Positions 471 through 27,935 of a stretch of 30,071 nucleotides of DNA are shown here, piece after piece; the stretch's first letter is position 1, and every line of letters begins with the position of its first letter. The stretch is from a virus. The stretch lies in IMG/VR virus record IMGVR_UViG_3300025108_000247, positions 1 through 30,071 of that record; one strand, given 5' to 3'. The notes beneath the pieces are model-generated. The model was given only the letters and a program-made list of their open reading frames with translations, had not been told where the DNA came from and made no database searches. The position numbers were made by a program, and so were the translations under genes.

Positions 471-600
471 AGGTTGGACTATATCCATTGGGTTTTATCC
501 TGGTATATTGTTCGGTGCTAGAAGCTACGTTGAAAAAGATATGACTACACACGTTATATATCTGCCTTTTGTAGACTTAGCAATTGAAATATATAGATAA
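439..600 (+). CDS. small conserved-type phage protein, 53 residues, unknown function
   Basis: The reading frame is open from 391, but I place the start at the ATG at 439 (MSKNTEDKG). The upstream 16 codons overlap the preceding gene and look unlike protein, while the rest is compact and amphipathic. The product contains GWTISIGFYPGILFG followed by a short acidic turn and THVIYLPFVDLAIEI, a pattern of alternating hydrophobic strands. It has no predicted leader peptide and no catalytic motif that I recognise. Similar small proteins occur near ribonucleotide reductase genes in marine phages as far as I recall. The TAA stop shares its last base with the nrdB ATG (TAATG at 598-602), so the two genes are probably translationally coupled. 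Confidence 0.65.
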   Translation: MSKNTEDKGVKGWTISIGFYPGILFGARSYVEKDMTTHVIYLPFVDLAIEIYR

Positions 601-1568
601 TGGGATTATTTAATGAGCGCATTGCGTACAAACCGTTTGAGTACCCTGAGTATTATACAGAAGGTTGGTTAAAACAAGCACAAGCATTTTGGTTGCATAC
701 TGAGATACCAATGCAAGGTGATTTTAAAGACTGGAACGAAAAGCTTACACCAGAAGAGAAAAACCTAGTAGGTAATATACTTTTAGGTTTTGCTCAAACA
801 GAGTGTGCTGTTTCAGATTACTGGACACAAAAAGTCGTATCATGGTTTCCTAAACACGAAATACAGCAAATGGCCATGATGTTTGGATCACAAGAAACAA
901 TACACGCTGTAGCTTATAGTTATTTAAATGAAACACTTGGTCTTGAAGATTACGAAGCCTTTTTACATGAGCCTGCAACTGCTGAAAGGTTTGATAACCT
1001 GGTTGCTTATGGTGGGACAAACACTGTTGGTATTGGCAAGTCTCTTGCTGTGTTTAGCGCTTTTGCTGAAGGGGTTAGTTTATATTCTGCTTTCGCTGTA
1101 CTCTATAGCTTTCAACTAAGAAACTTATTAAAAGGTATAGGTCAGCAAATGAAATGGTCAGTAAGAGACGAATCTTTACATAGTAAAATGGGTTGTAAGT
1201 TGTTTAGACAAATGTGTTCTGAAAACGAACAACTATTAAATCTGTGTAGATTAGATATTATAAACGCTGCAGAGACAATGGTTAAGCTAGAGACTAAATA
1301 CATTAATAAGATGTTTGAAATGGGTGACATTGAAGGCATCAGAGCTAATGATCTTAAACATTTTATAAAGAAAAGAGCAAATGAAAAACTGGTTGAACTT
1401 GGATATAAAGATTTGGAATCGCATTTCAAATATGACAAGATGGCAGCAGCTAATCTTGATTGGTTCTATCATCTTACCGGCGGGGTCACTCATACTGATT
1501 TTTTCGCGCTTAGGCCGACAGATTACTCGAAAGCTGGTGAAGGAGAGGACTTTGAGGATATTTGGTAA
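600..1568 (+). CDS. nrdB: ribonucleoside-diphosphate reductase, class I beta subunit
   Basis: This 322-residue protein is the radical-generating subunit of class I ribonucleotide reductase, which supplies deoxyribonucleotides for phage DNA synthesis. The ferritin-like metal site is visible: E68, E99 and H102 (ETIH), E157 (FAEG), and E191 and H194 (RDESLH). Y106 lies seven residues after E99, matching the radical Tyr122 of the E. coli enzyme. The first ligand position holds Glu (E68) where E. coli has Asp84. The C-terminus ends EDFEDIW, a short acidic, aromatic tail of the kind that docks to the alpha subunit. The start overlaps the previous stop (TAATG). nrdA lies downstream but is separated from nrdB by three other genes. 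The length is slightly shorter than the bacterial subunit (about 375 residues), as is common in phages. Confidence 0.97.
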   Translation: MGLFNERIAYKPFEYPEYYTEGWLKQAQAFWLHTEIPMQGDFKDWNEKLTPEEKNLVGNILLGFAQTECAVSDYWTQKVVSWFPKHEIQQMAMMFGSQETIHAVAYSYLNETLGLEDYEAFLHEPATAERFDNLVAYGGTNTVGIGKSLAVFSAFAEGVSLYSAFAVLYSFQLRNLLKGIGQQMKWSVRDESLHSKMGCKLFRQMCSENEQLLNLCRLDIINAAETMVKLETKYINKMFEMGDIEGIRANDLKHFIKKRANEKLVELGYKDLESHFKYDKMAAANLDWFYHLTGGVTHTDFFALRPTDYSKAGEGEDFEDIW

Positions 1569-2676: not shown

Positions 2677-4398
2677 ATGTGGAACGATGAATGGATTAAA
2701 GGAAAGGATTACCCAGAGTGGGGTGATACCGAAGTGTATAAAAAAACTATCGCCGGGGGTTATCTTCTTGATGGCGAATCTCCTAGTGATGCTTATTGGC
2801 GTGTTGCTAATACTGTGGGGAGGCGTTTATCTCGCCCTGAGTTAGCAGAAACTTTTTACGATTATATATGGAAAGGTTGGTTATGTCTAGCCTCACCTGT
2901 GCTTTCTAATACAGGTACTGATCGCGGTTTACCGATTAGTTGTTTTGGTATAGACGTAGCTGACTCAATACAAGATATAGGAGGTAAAAATTTAGAAATG
3001 ATGCTACTCGCTAAGCACGGCGGTGGAGTTGGTATCGGAGTTAATATGATCAGACCCGCTGGCGCTAAAATTACAGGCAATGGAACATCAGACGGAGTCG
3101 TACCTTTCTGCAAAATATATGACTCAACAATTCTTGCAACTAATCAAGGAAGCGTACGCAGAGGAGCCGCATCGGTTAATATCAATATTGAACACGACGA
3201 TTTTGAAGAGTGGCTTGAGATTAGAGAACCTAAAGGAGATGTCAACAGACAATCGCTTAATCTACATCAGTGCGCAGTTGTGGGTGATAAGTTTATGCGT
3301 AAACTTGAACAAGGAGATGCGCAAGCTAGAGATCGATGGAGTAAACTACTTAGAAAACGAAAAGCAACTGGAGAACCGTATATTATGTTTAAAGGAAATG
3401 TTAACAAAGCAAATCCAAAAGCATATAAAGAAAACGGATTAAAAGTACATATGACAAACATATGTAGTGAAATAACATTACATACAGATGAATCACACAG
3501 CTTTGTTTGCTGTTTATCATCTTTAAACCTAGCAAAATATGAAGAGTGGAAAGGTACTAATCTTATATACGACGCCATTTGGTTTCTTGACGGAGTTATG
3601 GAAGAATTTATTCAAAGGGCCAAAGGCCTTCGAGGTTTCGAAAACAGTGTTCGTTCTGCGCAGAAGGGAAGGGCTCTTGGTTTGGGAGTACTCGGATGGC
3701 ATACATATCTCCAAGAAAATGGCCTTCCTTTCGAAGGTTTATTATCTCAGTTTGAAACTAGGAAGATTTTTTCACAAATTAAAATCGAAAGCGAACGAGC
3801 CTCTATGGATCTTGCTGAGGCATACGGCGAGCCTCTTTGGTGTGCTGGCACTGGTATGCGTAACACTCATCTTAGGGCCATTGCTCCTACTGTGTCTAAT
3901 AGTAAGCTTAGTGGTAATGTCAGTCCTGGTATTGAGCCTTGGGCCGCTAATGTTTTCACTGAACAAAGTGCGAAGGGTACGTTCATTAGGAAAAATCCAA
4001 CGTTAGAACAATGTTTAGAAGATGCTGGTTTAAATAATAATGATGTTTGGAATAAGATACTTGAAGACGGAGGATCAGTACAAGATATAGACGCTTTAGA
4101 CGATGTGTTAATTGGTGATCATGATATTCCTTTAAAAGAAGTGTTTAAAACTTTTAAAGAAATAAATCAATTAGAGCTTGTTAATCAAGCTGGTTTACGC
4201 CAACAATATATTGATCAATCAGTAAGTTTGAATTTAGCTTTTCCTTCTGAAGCAACTCCTAAGTGGATTAATAAAGTTCATTTTGATGCTTGGAAAAAAG
4301 GTGTTAAAACTTTGTATTATACTAGAACTGAATCTGTATTGCGAGGAGATATTGCTGCTAAAGCAATGGATGAAGATTGTGTAGCTTGTGACGGATAA
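2677..4398 (+). CDS. nrdA: ribonucleoside-diphosphate reductase, class I alpha subunit without ATP-cone
   Basis: This 573-residue catalytic subunit reduces ribonucleotides with the radical provided by NrdB. Active-site residues are visible: C89 (ISCFG) and C278 (FVCCL) as the redox pair, and N261, C263 and E265 (NICSE) as the radical cysteine triad. Y547 and Y548 (LYYTR) form the radical-transfer pair, and C568 and C571 (DCVAC) form the C-terminal shuttle. The effector loop region (NQGSVRRGAASVNI) and the substrate phosphate region (APTVSNSKLSGNVSPGIEP) are intact. It is about 190 residues shorter than E. coli NrdA, and the N-terminal ATP-cone is absent, so overall dATP shut-off is probably lost. 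The first two thirds are notably richer in G+C than the last third. It is the last + strand gene before the terminator. Confidence 0.97.
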   Translation: MWNDEWIKGKDYPEWGDTEVYKKTIAGGYLLDGESPSDAYWRVANTVGRRLSRPELAETFYDYIWKGWLCLASPVLSNTGTDRGLPISCFGIDVADSIQDIGGKNLEMMLLAKHGGGVGIGVNMIRPAGAKITGNGTSDGVVPFCKIYDSTILATNQGSVRRGAASVNINIEHDDFEEWLEIREPKGDVNRQSLNLHQCAVVGDKFMRKLEQGDAQARDRWSKLLRKRKATGEPYIMFKGNVNKANPKAYKENGLKVHMTNICSEITLHTDESHSFVCCLSSLNLAKYEEWKGTNLIYDAIWFLDGVMEEFIQRAKGLRGFENSVRSAQKGRALGLGVLGWHTYLQENGLPFEGLLSQFETRKIFSQIKIESERASMDLAEAYGEPLWCAGTGMRNTHLRAIAPTVSNSKLSGNVSPGIEPWAANVFTEQSAKGTFIRKNPTLEQCLEDAGLNNNDVWNKILEDGGSVQDIDALDDVLIGDHDIPLKEVFKTFKEINQLELVNQAGLRQQYIDQSVSLNLAFPSEATPKWINKVHFDAWKKGVKTLYYTRTESVLRGDIAAKAMDEDCVACDG

Positions 4399-5954: not shown

Positions 5955-6225
5955 TTATTTCATATAATTTTTCATCTATTTTATCAAGTTTATCACTGTT
6001 TTCTTCAACTTTTTCTTGAGTATTCATGATCGTCTCGCGGACTAATCGATCTTTTAAATCGTACTCAGTTCTACTAATAGTTGGTTCAGGTAATTCTTTA
6101 GCTATTTCTATTTCTTTTTGCAACGTAAAATACATCGCGGCTAAAGACACAGCGCCTGCTATAACCATTCCTATTGTTTTTAAATCAAGGGTAACCTTAG
6201 TTCCTTCTCCAAGTTCTGTAGCCAT
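5941..6225 (-). CDS. membrane plus coiled-coil protein, holin or inner-spanin candidate
   Basis: The 94-residue protein has a short N-terminal segment and one membrane helix at about residues 16-34 (TIGMVIAGAVSLAAMYFTL). A long charged coiled coil (residues 58-94, KVEENSDKLDKIDEKLYEI) follows. One membrane span followed by a soluble helix fits an inner-membrane spanin or a small holin. Location supports this: the gene precedes the secreted protein and the endolysin. Its start shares a base with the stop of the giant gene (TAATG) and its end overlaps the next gene by 14 bases. The exact lysis role cannot be decided from the sequence. Confidence 0.7.
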   Translation of the reverse strand: MATELGEGTKVTLDLKTIGMVIAGAVSLAAMYFTLQKEIEIAKELPEPTISRTEYDLKDRLVRETIMNTQEKVEENSDKLDKIDEKLYEIIEKK

Positions 6226-9200
6226 TATTTAATCTTTTTTCTTTTTATTTTACGTTTTTTAATTTTTCTAGGTTGAGGTTTGGTTGTTTCGTTTTCTTCT
6301 TTTATACCTATTTCCCAATCAGACCAACCACCGAGCAAAGCCATTCTTTCCCAAGTTTCAAGATCTTGTGAAGTTGCTTGTACCACGTTATTAGTCTTTT
6401 TAACAGCTCTGTCAAGCGGTATATTAGTTAAAGCAGATACAACATTAGCGCTGGCTAGATAAGCTGGGTTATCCAAACTCCAACCTTTTTCAGCCATTTC
6501 TTTTTTATCCCATTGATACGATCTTGCCGCTTGATTTATACGAGATAATTTAGCAGATATAGGTGGGGATAATTTAGTTAACTCGTAACCTACTTTTTCA
6601 AGTTTAGGTTGCTTTTTCTGCATCTCATCATATATACGTTTCAACGCATTTTTACCAACAGATATTACAGCACCACCAAGACCCATACCTCTAAGAAGAG
6701 AATCCATCATACCGTTAGCTATACCAATATACTTTTTTTCTTTTTCTTCATCTTCTGGCTCTGTATCTCCAAAAGCAAAAGCAAATAAAGCTTGCTGCAA
6801 CGCGTTAAATAATAAGTTTTGAGCAACACCGTAGTATATGATCTTACTCATATTAGTCTTTGCATCACCTCGGCCATTCTTAAGATCTCTAGCAGCTTTT
6901 TTAATTAATCGCGCATATTGTGCTGGTGTGTTAGCAAAAGCCAATACAAGACGTCCTAATGAACCAGCTTGTTGCATTGATATTCTATCAGGTCTTGAAG
7001 ACTGTTGAGACTCTTCAGCGATCTCTCTAAAATCTACAAATGCTTTATCTTGAGCTTCTTTAGAATCTAAACCTTGTTTTTCATAAGTTTTAATTCTATT
7101 ACGATAAAAAGTAGCTCCACCAGATGCAATAGCAAAACTATCAGCAAGTTGTGTTGGTGTAAAACCAAACTCTAGCAACTTATTGATAACACCTTGTACG
7201 CCACCTTTTTTAGCCATATCAGCAATATCGGCTTCGTTAACATTGATACGTAAACCACCTCGACGTTCTTTTAAGAAATCAGAGTTTGCTAATGTTAAAA
7301 AGTCAGACCAAAATTGTTTTTGATTTCCAAAAGCTTTACCGGCAGCAAGAATATTATTATCTGTGAAGTTAACAAAGTTTATAGCCGATATAGTTTGAAG
7401 TATAGCTGACCTCGTGTTAAAAAACATTATTGTACCAATACTACCAGTTATCCAATCTGTAAACCTACCTGTTAATGAATCACCACTAAAGTTTCTGTTA
7501 CGACCAGTTTTCATACGCTGTAACATGTTCTCTAATGCTTTACGATAACCTTTACCATAAGCAGCTTGAAGTTTGTTTAAGTTCTTTTCTGAAAATATAA
7601 CATCTACATTGTTTTGCCATTGTTCTAGATACTTAGCTCTTTTAGTAGTGTTTAGCCCTTCAAGTAAATCTGTCGTTATAGTACCAGCTGGCCAACCTTC
7701 TTTTGGTTTTGCATATTGATCACCTTTTTGCATAGCTATAAGCTGATCAGCAAACACTTGTAAATCAGCGTTATCAGATACATACTCTGTTAAATCTTTT
7801 AAATCTGCTTTGCTTATACCAGGAACATCCATTCCTTGAGTATTCCATATGTAAACTCTTACAGCTTGTTCTCTTGTGTAAGGTTCACCTGGCACTTTTT
7901 TACGTAAATTTTTTGGTACTACTTTTAACTGTTTTTTAAGTTGTTTATAGTCATTCATTAAAGCTATGCGAGCAGAACTTAATTCATTCATAGCTCTACC
8001 GTATGGGTTTAACAAATGTTTTTTATACCAAGCCATTTGAGAATCACCAAGTTTTCCTTTACTAAGTGTATCGTATAATAAACCTACAAAATCCTCAGCT
8101 GATGGTGGTATAAAGAAATTAAATCTACCTTTACCAGCTCCAGCAACTTCAGCTTTAACTCTTTTGTATTCTTTTTCAGAAGCTATACCTGTTTTAGCTT
8201 CTATTATGTCATTAAAACCTTTATCAAGATCTGAGGCTTTACTAAATTTAACTTTAGCTTGCTGTGTTTTAGATTTAACATCAAATACGTCTAATGCATC
8301 TTGTACTGCTTTAACATTTTTATATGCATCATCTACAAAGAAAAAGTCATTGTAACCTTCAGCAGCTTTACCCGTCATCCAACGTGCTTTAGCTTCAGCC
8401 TTGCCATCACCTAAACCTACAATATTTTCTATAGGTAAATTAACACCAAGCGCATCCATAAATTCTTTAATAGGACCAGCAGCGTCAGCAGGTCTAGCCG
8501 TAAGTATAAATACATCTTCAGCGCCTCTTGCTTTAACTATATTTTGTATAGCTTTAAATACAGGACCTTTTTTACCATCAATTACTTTGCTAAACTCTGA
8601 GAAATCAAACTCAGCTCCTTGAGCTTCTAGCTCTCCAGCTCTTTCAGCAAACTGTGTAGCATCAAGCTTACCAGTCGTACCGTCAGGCATTTCATACAAT
8701 ACATTACTTTTAGATCTAGCTAGTGTATCGTCAAAGTCAAATACACGTATCTTTTTAACAGGTGCTTCAGGGTTTCTAGCGTTAGCCATAGCCTGATCTG
8801 CGTTACCTAGATTATCAAGCACTTCTTGGTTAGGTACTTGTTTGCTAAACTTTATTGTGTTATTTTCGTTGTTGTTAATAGCGCTAGCTTTTGTTTTGTT
8901 ATCGGCTATTTTAATGTATTCTTTTATTTGATTCTCAGCTTGCTTAGCGTTTATCTCTCCTATAAATTGTTGGTATATTAATCTACCTTGTTCAGCAATA
9001 ACATTTGTATTGCTTTCAAATTTTTTATCTACAGATACATTGTATCTTTTAGCATCTGTGATACCATCTCTAGATCTTGTGTTTGGATCTAAAGTAAAAA
9101 ACTCATTGTATTTTCTTATATCAGAAGGTGGTACTTGGCTAAAGTCTCCAGTTTTAAAAGCTTCATCTAATTTTTCTTTTAAATAAGGATGTTCTTGAAA

Positions 9201-12200
9201 TTTAGATTTCCAACCTGGGTAAACACCATCAACGATGCCTTGAGTGTCTCTACCTGTAACTTCTTGATAGTAGTTATCTTCTGCCCAATTTAACCAGCCG
9301 TTAACAATGTTAGGATCTTTAGTGCCGTAAGCTTGTAAAGTTCTATTAGCCCAATTACCAAATTGAAAGACGTGTTCTTCCCATGTTTTTTGTTTTGGTT
9401 TTAAATTACTTTCTATAGAAGTTACTGTAGCAAATTTCCTACCAAAACTAGAGTTAGCATTAGCATTATAAAGCAACTCTCTTATTGAGCCTAAATTATT
9501 TACATCAGCTTGAACAGCTCTAAACAAAGCGTCTAAAATTAAACGTTTGCCTCTTTTTATTTTATCTTTATTAGTTTTGTTTCTAGACATACTAGCTCTA
9601 GTCTGACTAGACGTAGCAGCTATAACATCTTGTATTTGTTCTTCAGATAATAAATTAGCTTTGTCTTTTATTTCATTTCTTAAAACTTGTAAATCCATAA
9701 CTTCACCAGCGGCTATAGCAGCATTAGTTTCGTCTATAAATCTTTGAGTTTTATTTATGTCTCCTATAAATCTAAAACCTCTACCTTTAGCTCCGCTAGT
9801 TTTTGTACTACCAACAGCTGAATTACCAGCTCCAGCTACATCACTTGGTTTTATTATTCTATTAGCTTCTGATCCTAAAAATTTAGTTAATTCATCAACT
9901 AAAAAAGTTCTAAAAGTTTGATTGTCTTCTATTGTATTACCTAAAACTTTACCTCCTGCTTTTTCAACAGTAGTGTTCATATCCGAAGCTATCCCAGTTT
10001 TACTAAACATAAGTCTAGCTTTACCAGCTGCTACATCTTGTTTTTGAGTAATATCTAAATCAGTTTCAGATCTAACCACTTCGTTTGTAACAAGCCTACC
10101 ATATAAATTAGCTATACCTTTTAAAGCTTGAGCTTCAGGTGATCTTGCACTAAAATCTTCAGCTTTTTTACCTTCAATAATACCAAAAGCTTTCAAAAAG
10201 TCAGACTTAGTTATGCCTTTATTCTTTTTAAATGGAGCAAGTCCAGCACCTTTACCAACTCTAGCTTGCTTAGTGTAAAAAGCATTAAGCAAACCTTTAG
10301 GTACACCTGTCGATGTCCCAATAAGTTTTTCAGTTGCTGCTTCTAGCACTGCTCCTTCTGGTAATATTTTCAATAATTTATCAGCATTTTTACTAACAAA
10401 TCTTTGAATAGCATTTGCATCACCTTTAGATAAATTAGCTTTTGGATCTACTAACTTTTTAACAGGTATACCTATAGCTTCAGCTATAACATCAGGAGCC
10501 AAATCACCTAGTTTTTTAAACGTAAGTTTATCGGCTGGAATATCTTTTACTTTTGCTACAACTTGTTTTTTAATTTCAGCTACAGACTCAGCAGGTATAA
10601 GTGATGTTGGTTTTATTTTTTTAGCAACACGTTCTTCAACTACTTCAGTAACAGCTTCTTCAGCCGCAACACCTTTAGCTTCAGTGACATCTTCAGTAAA
10701 TTGCTCCCCAAGTACTCTATTAGAAGCTTCAATAGCACGAGCTGGTAAAAACTTGTTTATATAAGCGGCTAATGGCACACCTGATTCTGGGTCGTATTCT
10801 TTAATCAAGTCTAATATACCACGCTTACCAAGCTCTATTTCCGATGTTAAATCTTCTCTGTTAAATCCAGGAGCATCGCGTCTACGATCTACTATTTTGT
10901 TGGTAATAGGTTTAAACTGCTCTATAATATCGAAAGCCCCAGCCTCCCCTTGTTCTTCGTAAATTCTTTGAACTTCTTGAGAAGCTTCTTCAGATCTTGA
11001 TTCTTTAATTATAGTTTCAGCTTCTTTAACAGCGTCTTTAACTAAAGCTCCTTTTACACCTTCTTTAGCTGCTTTAATTTGAGCTTTGCCTATAATACCT
11101 TTTTCTATGCTTTTATTGTAATCTTTAATAAAGTTGTAAACATCTCTACCCGTGTTAAACTTAACTTTAACACCAAAGCTTTGCATAACTCTACGTATTT
11201 GATCACCTATCTTAGTAAATATATTTTCGTTAAATTTTATATCACCAGTAGCTAAAGCGTCTGAAAATAACGTTATAGCTTCTTCCATTTTTATACTTTT
11301 AGGATCTGCTGAGTATTGCTCTAAACGACTTTTAAATTTACTGTCTTTTACTTGAGCTGCGTCTATTTTATTTATTTCACCAAGCAAGGCTTCGCCTAAA
11401 TTTACAGCTGTTTCTGGACTATCTTTTACAGTTTTAAATAATACAGCATGACCAAATTCATGACCAGCAATATTCATAGCTTTTTCCTTGTTAGCTACTT
11501 CTTTATTTATAACTATAGTTTGTTCTTCTGTTATAGGGTTTTGTATTATAAAACCTTGTTGTTGAGAAGCTTTTATATCTGCTTCTGGATCTTGCTGTTT
11601 TATAAAGTTTTCTACTTCTTGAGTTGTATCAAAACTTTGAACAGTTACACCTTCTAATTTTTCAGCAGCTTTAGTAACAACTTCAACACCTCTTTGTATT
11701 CTACGTTGTACAGATTCTTGAAATAAAACATCGTTTTCATCTCTTATTTCAATGAATTTTTTATTAGCTAGTTGTTTAACTGACTCTGTTGTTTTTGGGC
11801 TTTGTATTTGCTGCTGAAGCTTTCTTAACTCATTTTGGTTACCAGCATATACTTTTAATTCCGCTGGTGTCATACTGTTTAAAGCGTCAGTAGTTTCTTT
11901 TTTTATATTAACTATATTAGCCTCTTCAGCTTTTATAGCTTCATTAATAAGTTTAACGCCTTCTACATCAGCCGACTTAGCGTCTTTATATAATTTAGAT
12001 ATATTATTAGCTGATTGTATTAATTGTTTTTTGTTTTCAGAAGGAGTTAATATCATTTGAGCTCTTTCTACTACAGCTTTATCTGTATTAGCTAAAGCAC
12101 CAGCAAAAGTTGTACCACTACCCATAACACTACCGACAATACCTTCATCTATAATATTATAAGCTTCTTTCCCCCAGTCAATGTCTTTTCCTAATGTGAG

Positions 12201-13421
12201 TTGATCAAGAAAAAGAGTGGTAACTTTAGTAGCTGCCTCTGATCCACCTTCTTTTAGAGTGTTTAAACCTAAAGACGTAATTAGTTTTTCAGAACCACCT
12301 CTTATTAAGTCTCTAGCAGCTTTATCAGCACCAGTATCTTTTAGTAATCTTGCTTTGCTTAATATACCTCTTGTTACAAGTTCAAAACTAGCCTCAGTTA
12401 CACCGGTTAAACCAGCGTTAGCTAGTAAAGTACCTGTAGATTTTTCAGGATCAGCTTCAAACTCTTCCATAAACTTTCCACCAGAAACACTACCACCTAG
12501 TAAAAATAAACCTCCTACACCGGTAGCTGCTGCTACTAAAGAAGGTAAAGACTCTATAGCAGCTCCAACAGCTCTTTCACCAGCTTTTAAATAATTACCT
12601 TTTTCAATTTCTTCAGTTATTGTTTGAGTTTCATATTCTCTTATAGATGGTTCAAGTTTTTCAATAAACTTTCCAATACTAGAAGAAGGTGGTAATTTAG
12701 CTGTACCAGGAGCTTGTAAACCTCCAGCTTTAACAAGACCCATTATAGCTTGTTTTTCTTCTACAGTACCCTTATATTCTGGTTCAAAAGTATCTAATGC
12801 TGTTTCCATTAAAGAATACTGTATAGTTTCACCCATTTGACTTATACCTTTAGCGAAACCAGCAAAACCTCTAACAGCTTGAGCTGCATAACTTTCAATA
12901 ACAGATGGTTGAGTTTTTTGTTTAAGTATCTCAGAAGCTTTAGCATTTATTTCTTCTGGTTTAATTTCGTATTCTTCTACGCCTTTGTTTCTATAGTCTA
13001 ACTCTATTTGATCGACAGCTAAATCTTGTAGTTTTACCTTTTCAACATCTGGTAACTCATCAAATACAGTTTCTGAGACCTCAATCTCTTCAACAGCATC
13101 TTCTATAGCCTCTTGTTGTTGTCTGTTTTCTATTCTTTCAAGCTCTTTAGCTCTCTGCTGACCTCTAACACTTCTTCTTTTTGGTTGTGAAACCAAAGAA
13201 GTATCTACCGGCTCTAATTCCATACTCTCGGACGCTTGCTCCGGTTCCGATGTTACAGTTGCATCCTCTACTACAACATCGTTTGGCTTTCCCACTGGTT
13301 GTTCAGTTTTAATTTCTTTTAAATTAAACTTACTAACATAATCTTCTACAGAAAGTTTTTTAGCTTCTGCGGCTTCAGTTACTTCTTCTAACGTGTATTC
13401 AGAACCTTCGTATTCAAACAT
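6225..13421 (-). CDS. giant multi-domain internal virion ('polyvalent') protein, 2398 residues
   Basis: The product starts with MFEYEGSEYTLEEVTEAAEA, a leader typical of large marine phage virion proteins. Visible parts in order are: a low-complexity acidic region to about 150; Gly/Ala-rich hydrophobic segments near 290-314; a coiled region near 460-560; an HEFGH metalloprotease-type motif (H654, E655, H658); and a sigma-70 region 2-like segment (about 835-908, with R855-E-D-L, YDPESG and a conserved Arg-rich helix). A HAD phosphatase-like domain follows (about 1555-1710, with DFDDTL, a LTARP motif, a Lys in GDGKAEAK and FFVDD). The long helical C-terminal region has hydrophobic stretches near 1988-2018 and 2196-2218 and ends in a strongly basic Lys/Arg tail. 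Large multi-enzyme proteins of this type are injected with phage DNA (the polyvalent protein concept of Iyer, Aravind and colleagues). The location after the cargo-like genes supports ejection. Domain functions are inferred from motifs. Confidence 0.85.
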   Translation of the reverse strand: MFEYEGSEYTLEEVTEAAEAKKLSVEDYVSKFNLKEIKTEQPVGKPNDVVVEDATVTSEPEQASESMELEPVDTSLVSQPKRRSVRGQQRAKELERIENRQQQEAIEDAVEEIEVSETVFDELPDVEKVKLQDLAVDQIELDYRNKGVEEYEIKPEEINAKASEILKQKTQPSVIESYAAQAVRGFAGFAKGISQMGETIQYSLMETALDTFEPEYKGTVEEKQAIMGLVKAGGLQAPGTAKLPPSSSIGKFIEKLEPSIREYETQTITEEIEKGNYLKAGERAVGAAIESLPSLVAAATGVGGLFLLGGSVSGGKFMEEFEADPEKSTGTLLANAGLTGVTEASFELVTRGILSKARLLKDTGADKAARDLIRGGSEKLITSLGLNTLKEGGSEAATKVTTLFLDQLTLGKDIDWGKEAYNIIDEGIVGSVMGSGTTFAGALANTDKAVVERAQMILTPSENKKQLIQSANNISKLYKDAKSADVEGVKLINEAIKAEEANIVNIKKETTDALNSMTPAELKVYAGNQNELRKLQQQIQSPKTTESVKQLANKKFIEIRDENDVLFQESVQRRIQRGVEVVTKAAEKLEGVTVQSFDTTQEVENFIKQQDPEADIKASQQQGFIIQNPITEEQTIVINKEVANKEKAMNIAGHEFGHAVLFKTVKDSPETAVNLGEALLGEINKIDAAQVKDSKFKSRLEQYSADPKSIKMEEAITLFSDALATGDIKFNENIFTKIGDQIRRVMQSFGVKVKFNTGRDVYNFIKDYNKSIEKGIIGKAQIKAAKEGVKGALVKDAVKEAETIIKESRSEEASQEVQRIYEEQGEAGAFDIIEQFKPITNKIVDRRRDAPGFNREDLTSEIELGKRGILDLIKEYDPESGVPLAAYINKFLPARAIEASNRVLGEQFTEDVTEAKGVAAEEAVTEVVEERVAKKIKPTSLIPAESVAEIKKQVVAKVKDIPADKLTFKKLGDLAPDVIAEAIGIPVKKLVDPKANLSKGDANAIQRFVSKNADKLLKILPEGAVLEAATEKLIGTSTGVPKGLLNAFYTKQARVGKGAGLAPFKKNKGITKSDFLKAFGIIEGKKAEDFSARSPEAQALKGIANLYGRLVTNEVVRSETDLDITQKQDVAAGKARLMFSKTGIASDMNTTVEKAGGKVLGNTIEDNQTFRTFLVDELTKFLGSEANRIIKPSDVAGAGNSAVGSTKTSGAKGRGFRFIGDINKTQRFIDETNAAIAAGEVMDLQVLRNEIKDKANLLSEEQIQDVIAATSSQTRASMSRNKTNKDKIKRGKRLILDALFRAVQADVNNLGSIRELLYNANANSSFGRKFATVTSIESNLKPKQKTWEEHVFQFGNWANRTLQAYGTKDPNIVNGWLNWAEDNYYQEVTGRDTQGIVDGVYPGWKSKFQEHPYLKEKLDEAFKTGDFSQVPPSDIRKYNEFFTLDPNTRSRDGITDAKRYNVSVDKKFESNTNVIAEQGRLIYQQFIGEINAKQAENQIKEYIKIADNKTKASAINNNENNTIKFSKQVPNQEVLDNLGNADQAMANARNPEAPVKKIRVFDFDDTLARSKSNVLYEMPDGTTGKLDATQFAERAGELEAQGAEFDFSEFSKVIDGKKGPVFKAIQNIVKARGAEDVFILTARPADAAGPIKEFMDALGVNLPIENIVGLGDGKAEAKARWMTGKAAEGYNDFFFVDDAYKNVKAVQDALDVFDVKSKTQQAKVKFSKASDLDKGFNDIIEAKTGIASEKEYKRVKAEVAGAGKGRFNFFIPPSAEDFVGLLYDTLSKGKLGDSQMAWYKKHLLNPYGRAMNELSSARIALMNDYKQLKKQLKVVPKNLRKKVPGEPYTREQAVRVYIWNTQGMDVPGISKADLKDLTEYVSDNADLQVFADQLIAMQKGDQYAKPKEGWPAGTITTDLLEGLNTTKRAKYLEQWQNNVDVIFSEKNLNKLQAAYGKGYRKALENMLQRMKTGRNRNFSGDSLTGRFTDWITGSIGTIMFFNTRSAILQTISAINFVNFTDNNILAAGKAFGNQKQFWSDFLTLANSDFLKERRGGLRINVNEADIADMAKKGGVQGVINKLLEFGFTPTQLADSFAIASGGATFYRNRIKTYEKQGLDSKEAQDKAFVDFREIAEESQQSSRPDRISMQQAGSLGRLVLAFANTPAQYARLIKKAARDLKNGRGDAKTNMSKIIYYGVAQNLLFNALQQALFAFAFGDTEPEDEEKEKKYIGIANGMMDSLLRGMGLGGAVISVGKNALKRIYDEMQKKQPKLEKVGYELTKLSPPISAKLSRINQAARSYQWDKKEMAEKGWSLDNPAYLASANVVSALTNIPLDRAVKKTNNVVQATSQDLETWERMALLGGWSDWEIGIKEENETTKPQPRKIKKRKIKRKKIK

Positions 13422-15945: not shown

Positions 15946-16356
15946 TTAATTTATTTTTTTAGATATTTCATAAGAAGGATTTTTATCTATTGTGTAACCT
16001 AGTTTTCTATGAGTTTCAATTAAACCCTTACTTCTTCCAATACTTAGTATTACTTCAAAGCCGCTATTTTTAGCGACGTTTTCTATTCCGTTTATTAATA
16101 ACTCCATTGCTTGTTTTCTATCTGACTCTCTATAATCTGGATCTGAAACTACCCATTCTATCCAAGCTACTTTTGAGTTTGTTGTATATAAAAAACCTGC
16201 AATTATAGGTTTATTATTTTTTTCAACCATAAAACCACCTGTTCCATTTTCAGGTAGCATGTGTTTAGGTACTGGTACCCACTCTGGCCATTGCTCCCAC
16301 CAAAAGTTCAAAGTTTCCCAGTCACTTTCAATAAGTTTACGTATGTTTAATTCCAT
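15946..16356 (-). CDS. GNAT-like acetyltransferase-fold protein in the tail module
   Basis: The 136-residue product has the order of GNAT N-acetyltransferase elements. An N-terminal strand and helix (NIRKLIESDWETLNFWW) are followed by GGFMVEKNNKPIIAGFLY, then KVAWIEWVVSDPDYR, then a helix (ELLINGIENVAKNSG) and VILSIGRSKGLIETHRKLGY, which corresponds to the last GNAT motif. The acetyl-CoA loop, normally (R/Q)xxGx(G/A), here reads YRESDRKQA (75-83) and lacks both Gly, so cofactor binding may be altered. The Trp-rich WWEQWPEWVPVPKHMLP segment is characteristic of a group seen in marine phage virion operons. The substrate is unknown. A virion protein as target or a structural use of the fold are both possible. 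Confidence 0.8.
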   Translation of the reverse strand: MELNIRKLIESDWETLNFWWEQWPEWVPVPKHMLPENGTGGFMVEKNNKPIIAGFLYTTNSKVAWIEWVVSDPDYRESDRKQAMELLINGIENVAKNSGFEVILSIGRSKGLIETHRKLGYTIDKNPSYEISKKIN

Positions 16357-26720: not shown

Positions 26721-27935
26721 TTAAATTTTAATTTTTTTTACTTTTAGTTTTGATGCACTAAGCGCATCGTTGTTTAACACTTTCACTTTTATACCATCTT
26801 GAAAACCACCTTGAGGCGTTTGCCTTGGTGTTGAACTAGGATTTTTGGAACTATTGACAACCTCTTTAACAGCGTCAGCTCTACCTTGTTCATAAAAATG
26901 ATTTGCAATAGTGTCAGCATTTGAAGCAGCATACATAGCTTTGTGATAACCAGCCGGATCTTTTACACTACCATCTTCGTTAAGGAACTTCCCTACAAGA
27001 TTACTAATGTCTGATTGGTTTTCTGCAACTTTAGAAGGATCTTTTACACCGTATCTAAACTTTTTTTCACCTAATTTGAAATCAAAACCTTTGAAATCTT
27101 CGCTAAAAAGTTGTTTAGTTTGGTTTTTAAACTCTTCATGTTGTTGCTCAGCTTTTGTTTGCTGATCATTATATCGATTGAAAAAGTCCATTGCTTTTTG
27201 TTGTTCTTGAGTTACGCCCGGTCTCAACTTGATCTCGTCGTAGTATTTACTCTTAGTTTCTTCCAAAAAGTTTTTGGCTTTTGCAACTTCTTCTTTAAAC
27301 GCAAGTTTTTTCTTACGTATATCTCTTTCCTCGTCTAACTCTTCATCATAAGAAAAGTCTTCAAGTAAAAGATTTATATCCTCACCTTCTAGATAAGGTT
27401 TGGTCTGTTTATAATATTCTCTTAATAATGTATTTGAATCAACATTAGAGTAGTCAGCGTTTAAACGAACATAATCGTTAATATCTCCACCTGTTTCCTC
27501 CATAAATGAAACTAGTTTTTCGATGTTTTCTGGTAGTGGTTTACCTAATACCTTTTCATCTCTAATAGCTTCTTTTACTTGCTTCTCAACTTGTTTTACT
27601 TCCTCCTGTACTTCTTCTTCTGTTATTTCTTGAATGATTGGAGCTTCATCTTGAACGGTGCTTTGTTCTGATGATACTTCTTCAACCACTTCTTGTACAG
27701 GTCCGGTTTGTTGATCTGCAACCACGTTTGTTGTTTCTTGCTCTGTATTGGCATTTTCTTCGGGTTGTTTTTCTTCAGAACCAATTACTACTTTAGTAAC
27801 TTGCTCTTCTACTTGTTTTTCTACTGGAGCAGACAAATCTACTTTGACAGGCTCGCTCTGTGTTTTAACCAGTTTTTTAGGTGTAGTCTTCTTACCTTTT
27901 AAAGAAAACTCTCCTTCTTGTTTTACTTCTGACAT
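26721..27935 (-). CDS. scaffold-like head assembly protein, 404 residues
   Basis: The gene lies between portal and major capsid, the classical scaffold position. The N-terminal third is very acidic and repetitive in Glu, Val and Gln (for example QEITEEEVQEEVKQVEKQV), so it is probably disordered. The middle (about 140-275) is helical and charged: NIEKLVSFMEETGGDINDYV, LLREYYKQTKPYLEGEDINL, then a long Lys/Glu coiled coil. The C-terminal part ends in a short basic KLKVKKIKI tail, reminiscent of scaffolding proteins whose basic end binds the capsid protein. No enzyme motif is seen. The assignment is by position, composition and architecture. Confidence 0.75.
   Translation of the reverse strand: MSEVKQEGEFSLKGKKTTPKKLVKTQSEPVKVDLSAPVEKQVEEQVTKVVIGSEEKQPEENANTEQETTNVVADQQTGPVQEVVEEVSSEQSTVQDEAPIIQEITEEEVQEEVKQVEKQVKEAIRDEKVLGKPLPENIEKLVSFMEETGGDINDYVRLNADYSNVDSNTLLREYYKQTKPYLEGEDINLLLEDFSYDEELDEERDIRKKKLAFKEEVAKAKNFLEETKSKYYDEIKLRPGVTQEQQKAMDFFNRYNDQQTKAEQQHEEFKNQTKQLFSEDFKGFDFKLGEKKFRYGVKDPSKVAENQSDISNLVGKFLNEDGSVKDPAGYHKAMYAASNADTIANHFYEQGRADAVKEVVNSSKNPSSTPRQTPQGGFQDGIKVKVLNNDALSASKLKVKKIKI

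Follow-up and report, generated by a model that had tools for sequence, protein, structure and literature searches.

Phage proteins that join unrelated enzyme modules in one giant mosaic chain, carry an HExxH zincin and are encoded in a virion-gene neighbourhood are described as polyvalent proteins by Iyer et al. (2017; PMC5512222). Autoprocessing is proposed there for the zincins of such proteins, and P1 DdrB, a virion protein with an HExxH motif (HELGH at 872), is reported as processed (PMC5512222). The N4-type virion RNA polymerase, a giant protein with a metallopeptidase (MPTase) domain, is reported in the same text as virion-borne, injected and packaged unprocessed (PMC5512222). The word "linker" does not occur in the main text of PMC5512222, and its passages on these proteins describe no recurrent motif at the seams between modules. 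Searches of open-access literature likewise gave no relevant account of such a motif, be it for joining or for cleavage.

P0001 is a giant multi-module ORF of 2398 aa (6225-13421, minus strand) in a viral sequence of 30,071 nucleotides (IMG/VR record IMGVR_UViG_3300025108_000247; the whole stretch is called the window here). It shares with the polyvalent proteins the giant mosaic chain, the HExxH zincin-like module and the virion-gene neighbourhood, and resembles DdrB as an HExxH-bearing, putatively virion-borne protein; its likeness to the N4-type polymerase is one of description only. The gene lies towards the end of a virion-structural cluster with the portal gene at its start, and the matches to portal and other virion structural PHROGs are on the same strand. 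The portal is 49% identical to that of a podovirus record, and its relatives are found in elemoviruses, Cellulophaga phages and an uncultured podovirus. With a zincin-like module, a HAD module, swapping cargo and a conserved C-terminal module in one chain, P0001 is best explained as a polyvalent protein in which interchangeable modules are arranged around constant zincin, post-zincin and C-terminal modules. This giant marine-phage protein is probably injected.

Modules of the giant chain

Two sets of homologues were assembled. When viral contigs were searched with P0001, 44 loci were recovered; 42 of them contain a homologous large ORF, so that set 1 comprises 43 giants with P0001 included. 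For a held-out set, the alignment of the C-terminal module then served as query. It has at least 537 relatives, from which 80 additional loci were taken; all 80 gave a giant, and 61 were left after removal of 19 near-duplicates. The matches in genome contigs, 17 in number, all fall in MAGs.

The zincin-like metallopeptidase (MPTase) module occupies residues ~591-770 (11112-11651, minus strand), with the active-site motif HEFGH at residues 654-658 (11448-11462, minus strand). In a 25-row alignment of the module H115, E116, H119 and E175 are invariant, which corresponds to an HExxH motif with a downstream Glu. The AlphaFold model (mean pLDDT 76.8) finds weak structural matches in Foldseek (best E 0.07), where zincins lead the listing, and middling ones in VIA-align (Z 6.6, rmsd 4.4-5.7 over 171-178 residues), where the leading rows are mostly zincins. 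The Pfam MPTase-PolyVal model is not among the matches listed for P0001. The conserved module that follows (residues ~812-960; 10542-10988, minus strand) was located in 65 of 104 giants. By eye it resembles sigma-70 region 2, and the Pfam search of P0001 gave no match of that kind; a sigma-like domain, if injected, would matter for early transcription.

Further downstream, residues ~1546-1723 (8253-8786, minus strand) form a HAD phosphatase-like module (phrog_415, E 2.1e-06). The DxDxT, Thr, Lys and DD catalytic motifs are all present: D1562, D1564, T1566, T1641, K1678, D1697 and D1698 stand in invariant columns of a 23-row alignment (residue number being position in the aligned piece + 1059), and their roles are presumably those usual in HAD phosphatases. 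The segment has no match to annotated phages at 0.01 and one weak match among solved-structure sequences, to a baculovirus protein (E 0.0028). The chain ends in the conserved C-terminal module (residues 1735-2398; 6228-8219, minus strand), which has a mean column identity of 65% in a 29-row alignment and is found in 96 of the 104 giants. Neither this alignment nor that of the MPTase module matches solved-structure sequences at E up to 1, P0001 as a whole has no match to annotated phages at 1e-5, and no NCBIfam family covers it. The extreme C-terminus is a lysine/arginine-rich tail (6228-6290, minus strand); the ORF at 26721-27935 has a lysine-rich end too, possibly a packaging signal common to both.

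A short motif at module seams

The initial annotation had drawn attention to short FSK-containing repeats in P0001, and their positions are confirmed. MFSK (as LMFSK) lies at residues 1138-1141 (9999-10010, minus strand), where alignments with homologues tend to end (eight end at 1140-1143). KFSK (as IKFSK) at residues 1524-1527 (8841-8852, minus strand) coincides with a cluster of alignment starts (six at 1521-1530). A second KFSK (as VKFSK), at residues 1725-1728 (8238-8249, minus strand), marks the border to the C-terminal module, and most of the alignments that begin near this module start at 1704-1728. Some alignments end away from the motifs, for example at 1050. The two KFSK copies had been described as bracketing the HAD domain. 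This holds for the second, since the PHROG match ends at 1726, but the first is not immediately before the domain, whose PHROG match starts at 1547 and whose DFDDT core starts at residue 1562. A fourth FSK had been overlooked: an EFSK at residues 1609-1612 (8586-8597, minus strand) falls inside the HAD module and is not at a seam. In a model of residues 1060-1800 built on a 23-row alignment, which is of modest quality (mean pLDDT 60.5; 240 of 741 residues below 50), all three seam copies (model residues 78-82, 464-468 and 665-669) are in segments with pLDDT below 50.

Could the repeats have arisen by chance, as FSK appearing in short lysine-rich linkers? In 5000 shuffles of P0001 the four FSK exceed the expected 0.56 (p 0.0024) and the two KFSK the expected 0.06 (p 0.001), both being post hoc comparisons. 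Among 19 further ORFs of the window (7054 aa in total) none has an FSK, and they contain one copy of [LIV][KMR]FS. The choice of motif was made after the fact and 71 tetrapeptides occur at least twice in the chain (shuffle mean 54), so that little could be concluded from P0001 by itself. The chance explanation is nevertheless very improbable and already refuted by replication in the held-out giants, barring an unrecognised bias in that set, with matched local controls and decoys that mostly stay at background.

For this comparison, a seam was defined as the point where a BLAST alignment of at least 60 residues between two giants stops, provided that this is not close to a terminus of the protein. 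Motifs within 5 residues of such an end were counted as at-seam, and positions 25-150 residues away served as local control. Set 1 retains near-duplicates (e.g., L009 and L010), and counts therefore use instances non-redundant by their flanks unless stated; in the held-out set they are restricted to instances non-homologous to those of set 1 and to breaks among held-out giants. The pattern [IVL]xFSK is that of the initial annotation, which had named its enrichment between domains in advance as a check, and it is found at a seam in 16/19 cases in set 1 (local control 0.19) and in 19/24 held-out cases (control 0.26). [LIV][KMR]FS, picked on set 1, gives 25/29 (control 0.23) and 20/25 (control 0.30), respectively. 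The binomial p for the enrichment is ~1e-7 with relatedness ignored; distant homologues of one seam may count separately, so that truly independent events are fewer than instances.

Among the held-out decoys, [LIV]xSF (13/57, 0.23, against a background of 0.22) and [LIV][KMR]F[^STA] (12/56, 0.21, against 0.25) are at background. Above background are [LIV][KMR]YS (5/5) and [LIV][KMR]LS (11/18), which are read as variants of the seam motif, as well as [LIV][^KMR]FS (18/37), [LIV]xFK (23/43), FKS (12/27) and SK (228/602). With scrambled decoys mostly at background, approximately [LIV]-[KM]-F-S-K is a real module-seam motif. Unbiased mining of breaks also ranks MFS, KFS and FSK high among tripeptides (p ~1e-4, uncorrected). 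Most homology breaks, which are noisy, are motif-free: [LIVMA]xFS occurs in 21 of 268 non-redundant breaks and is absent from 247. An ungapped swap scan, dominated by indels, shows only mild enrichment, with [LIV]xFSK at 8 of 406 breaks (2.0 expected) and in both partners at 0/406.

The logo of 48 non-redundant seam copies from both sets has A or P at position -2 followed by L/I/V, and then a core of K (37) or M (9), F, S, K (28) and S (18). Three residues beyond the Ser it shows no preference for Glu or Asp, and a helix N-cap reading was therefore rejected. The copies are placed variously: 2 before the post-zincin module, 9 at the end of the module that follows, 5 before HAD, 7 before the C-terminal module and 25 in cargo or unassigned places. 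One upstream end may be joined to differing downstream modules and the reverse (e.g., L003/L023 and L030/L036). Disorder propensity in the flanks of the copies is a little higher than in local controls (0.145 vs. 0.101).

Conservation of the motif at a given site is uneven. At the HAD/C-terminal border only 14 of 56 distinct homologues have [LIV][KMR]FS, and few columns of this border are as poorly conserved as those of the motif. In giants without HAD, the motif before the C-terminal module forms a conservation island (Ser 27/35, Lys 25/35, Phe/Tyr 23/35). Where both flanks are homologous, the motif is kept no better than they are: Phe identity is 0.37 and Ser identity 0.64, compared with 0.23-0.71 in the flanks (all pairs, uncorrected for relatedness). 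A strict copy is absent from 39 of 92 giants longer than 2000 aa. The proposal that FSK marks domain borders thus stands as an enrichment and fails as strict positional conservation. Bracketing of HAD is not general either: of 60 giants with both HAD and the C-terminal module, 11 have a copy within 50 residues upstream of HAD, 23 have one downstream and only 6 have both. The best reading is a fast-turnover motif, whose sites are quickly gained and lost, and such rapid gain and loss is usual for short linear motifs. In practice, the motif can split chains into modules where domain models fail.

Cutting, docking or inheritance

What does a short, probably exposed linear motif do at so many module seams? 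The reading preferred here, with a probability of roughly 0.4, is that it serves as a recognition motif and, most plausibly, as a site of processing, where the chain would be cleaved to give separate enzymes while virions are assembled or once it has entered the cell. The enrichment at seams, the varied placement, module swapping, low pLDDT, the slightly disorder-prone flanks, the conservation island of the no-HAD class, the near-universal HExxH and the precedent of DdrB and the proposed autoprocessing (PMC5512222) count in favor of processing. The 39/92 giants without a copy, the 14/56 at the HAD/C-terminal border, identities no higher than in homologous flanks, the motif-poor breaks and the lack of a strict copy in elemoF gp18, a cultured relative with a zincin, count against it, as do the independence from HExxH and a codon bias at the motif, both described below. 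The motif gives exact sites at which to seek cut ends.

The HEFGH domain of the chain itself had been suggested as the protease. A zincin-like module with an HExxH that is invariant in the 25-row alignment is indeed present, but a specific link between the motif and this domain is not supported. HExxH is found in 84 of the 92 giants longer than 2000 aa, and the remaining eight have EELFH (L023, L053, L055, L066, L067 and L080), QEVGH (L079) or HEMVGH (L105). A strict motif occurs anywhere in the chain in 47/84 giants with HExxH and in 6/8 without (Fisher p 0.46). Seam-located copies are present in five of the six EELFH giants; the sole copy of L055 corresponds to an L053 copy that is not at a seam. 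The EELFH giants keep the motif, so a plain HExxH enzyme cannot be the cutter throughout the family; it would possibly be the chain's own zincin in most members. Cutting at the seam motif by the zincin is possible, and what speaks for it is their co-occurrence. All eight giants without HExxH retain the downstream Glu, so that the EELFH site may be not dead but a variant. These natural variants with an altered zincin site and intact motifs make the autoprocessing idea testable. The second His is also kept in the EELFH giants, a possible variant metal site.

Alternatively, the motif may act in docking or as a hinge without any cutting, either by binding a virion partner (portal, core or internal proteins) or by flexing so that modules unfold singly through the tail. 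Seam location, probable exposure and fast turnover suit binding no less than cleavage, the independence from HExxH fits too, and a passage of PMC10172136 proposes partial unfolding of cargo proteins at ejection in a crassvirus. Against it, copy number varies and the strict copy is lacking in the 39 long giants noted above. Docking or flexing is considered somewhat unlikely.

The codons of the motif bear on another explanation, in which the seam is an inherited recombination seam: it would be what the constant modules ancestrally ended or began with, carried along in the DNA at each module insertion and with little function as a peptide. The motif drifts under vertical descent and its copies flank some modules on both sides, as this would have it. 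Moreover, 34/48 seam motifs have an AGY serine codon, more than expected from the remaining serines of these linkers (29/80, p 2e-4) or from F-S serines elsewhere (162/369, p 6e-4). This is a hint that inheritance is in part at the DNA level, and the serine-codon signal would fit a partial copying of the DNA at seams. On the other hand, both families of serine codons and both Phe codons are used, raised identity between the DNA stretches next to the motifs within a giant was not found, and the conservation island of the no-HAD class is local. Concordance of the serine codon within giants is 40/44 pairs uncorrected and weakens with clade correction, so that concerted evolution of this codon was rejected: p is ~0.05-0.08 with one giant per clade at 65-80% identity, the signal is gone at 50-60% identity (only 2 clades), and one control pattern reached p 0.04. 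Altogether, inheritance of the seam as DNA is somewhat unlikely as the main explanation. The AAG lysine codon bias before Phe was likewise set aside as context (0.48 in K-F without a following Ser vs. 0.56 in [LIV]KFS).

The preferred reading of the motif as a processing site may be taken further, to a general release code in which a virion-borne zincin or a partner protease would cut [LIV]-[KM]-F-S-K seams after entry and motif-bearing seams would be slots for new modules. This extension is doubtful and distinctly less probable than processing as such; if true, one injected chain would free a different set of enzymes in each phage.

Relatives and neighbouring genes

Generality of the motif outside this phage group is not supported. 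The strict motif is absent from P1 DarB, DarA and DdrB and from epsilon15 gp15-17; unlike P0001, DdrB is devoid of [LIV][KMR]FS, and its one [LIVMA]x[FY]S adjoins HELGH. Three further large proteins come from structural gene clusters of phages. ElemoF gp18 (Elemovirus) matches the MPTase profile (E 9e-9) and Tenacibaculum phage Gundel_1 gp074 the C-terminal profile (E 4e-11), both without the strict motif. Cellulophaga phi40:1 gp101, a virion protein according to its MS/MS annotation, has the same gene position as P0001 and, unlike it, has neither HExxH nor the strict motif nor a significant profile match, and shows no detectable similarity to it. Searches with single proteins gave 3 loci for elemoF gp18 and 1 locus for Gundel gp074, and matches to MPTase-PolyVal in Bacteroidia are mostly in ORFs of ~300-400 aa. 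Five gammaproteobacterial loci bearing LPD38 were found (in 5/369 genomes searched), and their nine longest ORFs hold one copy, VRFSR. It is located at residue 924 of a 1810-aa ORF (L161), in a glycine-rich linker of the LPD38 protein.

Three further genes of the window were tentatively assigned by eye. A small GNAT-like acetyltransferase (15946-16356, minus strand) lies inside the structural cluster, and in the record MW202828 a gene at a similar place carries the annotation acetyltransferase subunit. The ORF at 600-1568 (plus strand) resembles the small subunit of ribonucleotide reductase, and that at 2677-4398 (plus strand; 573 aa) the large subunit, with a start that seems short.
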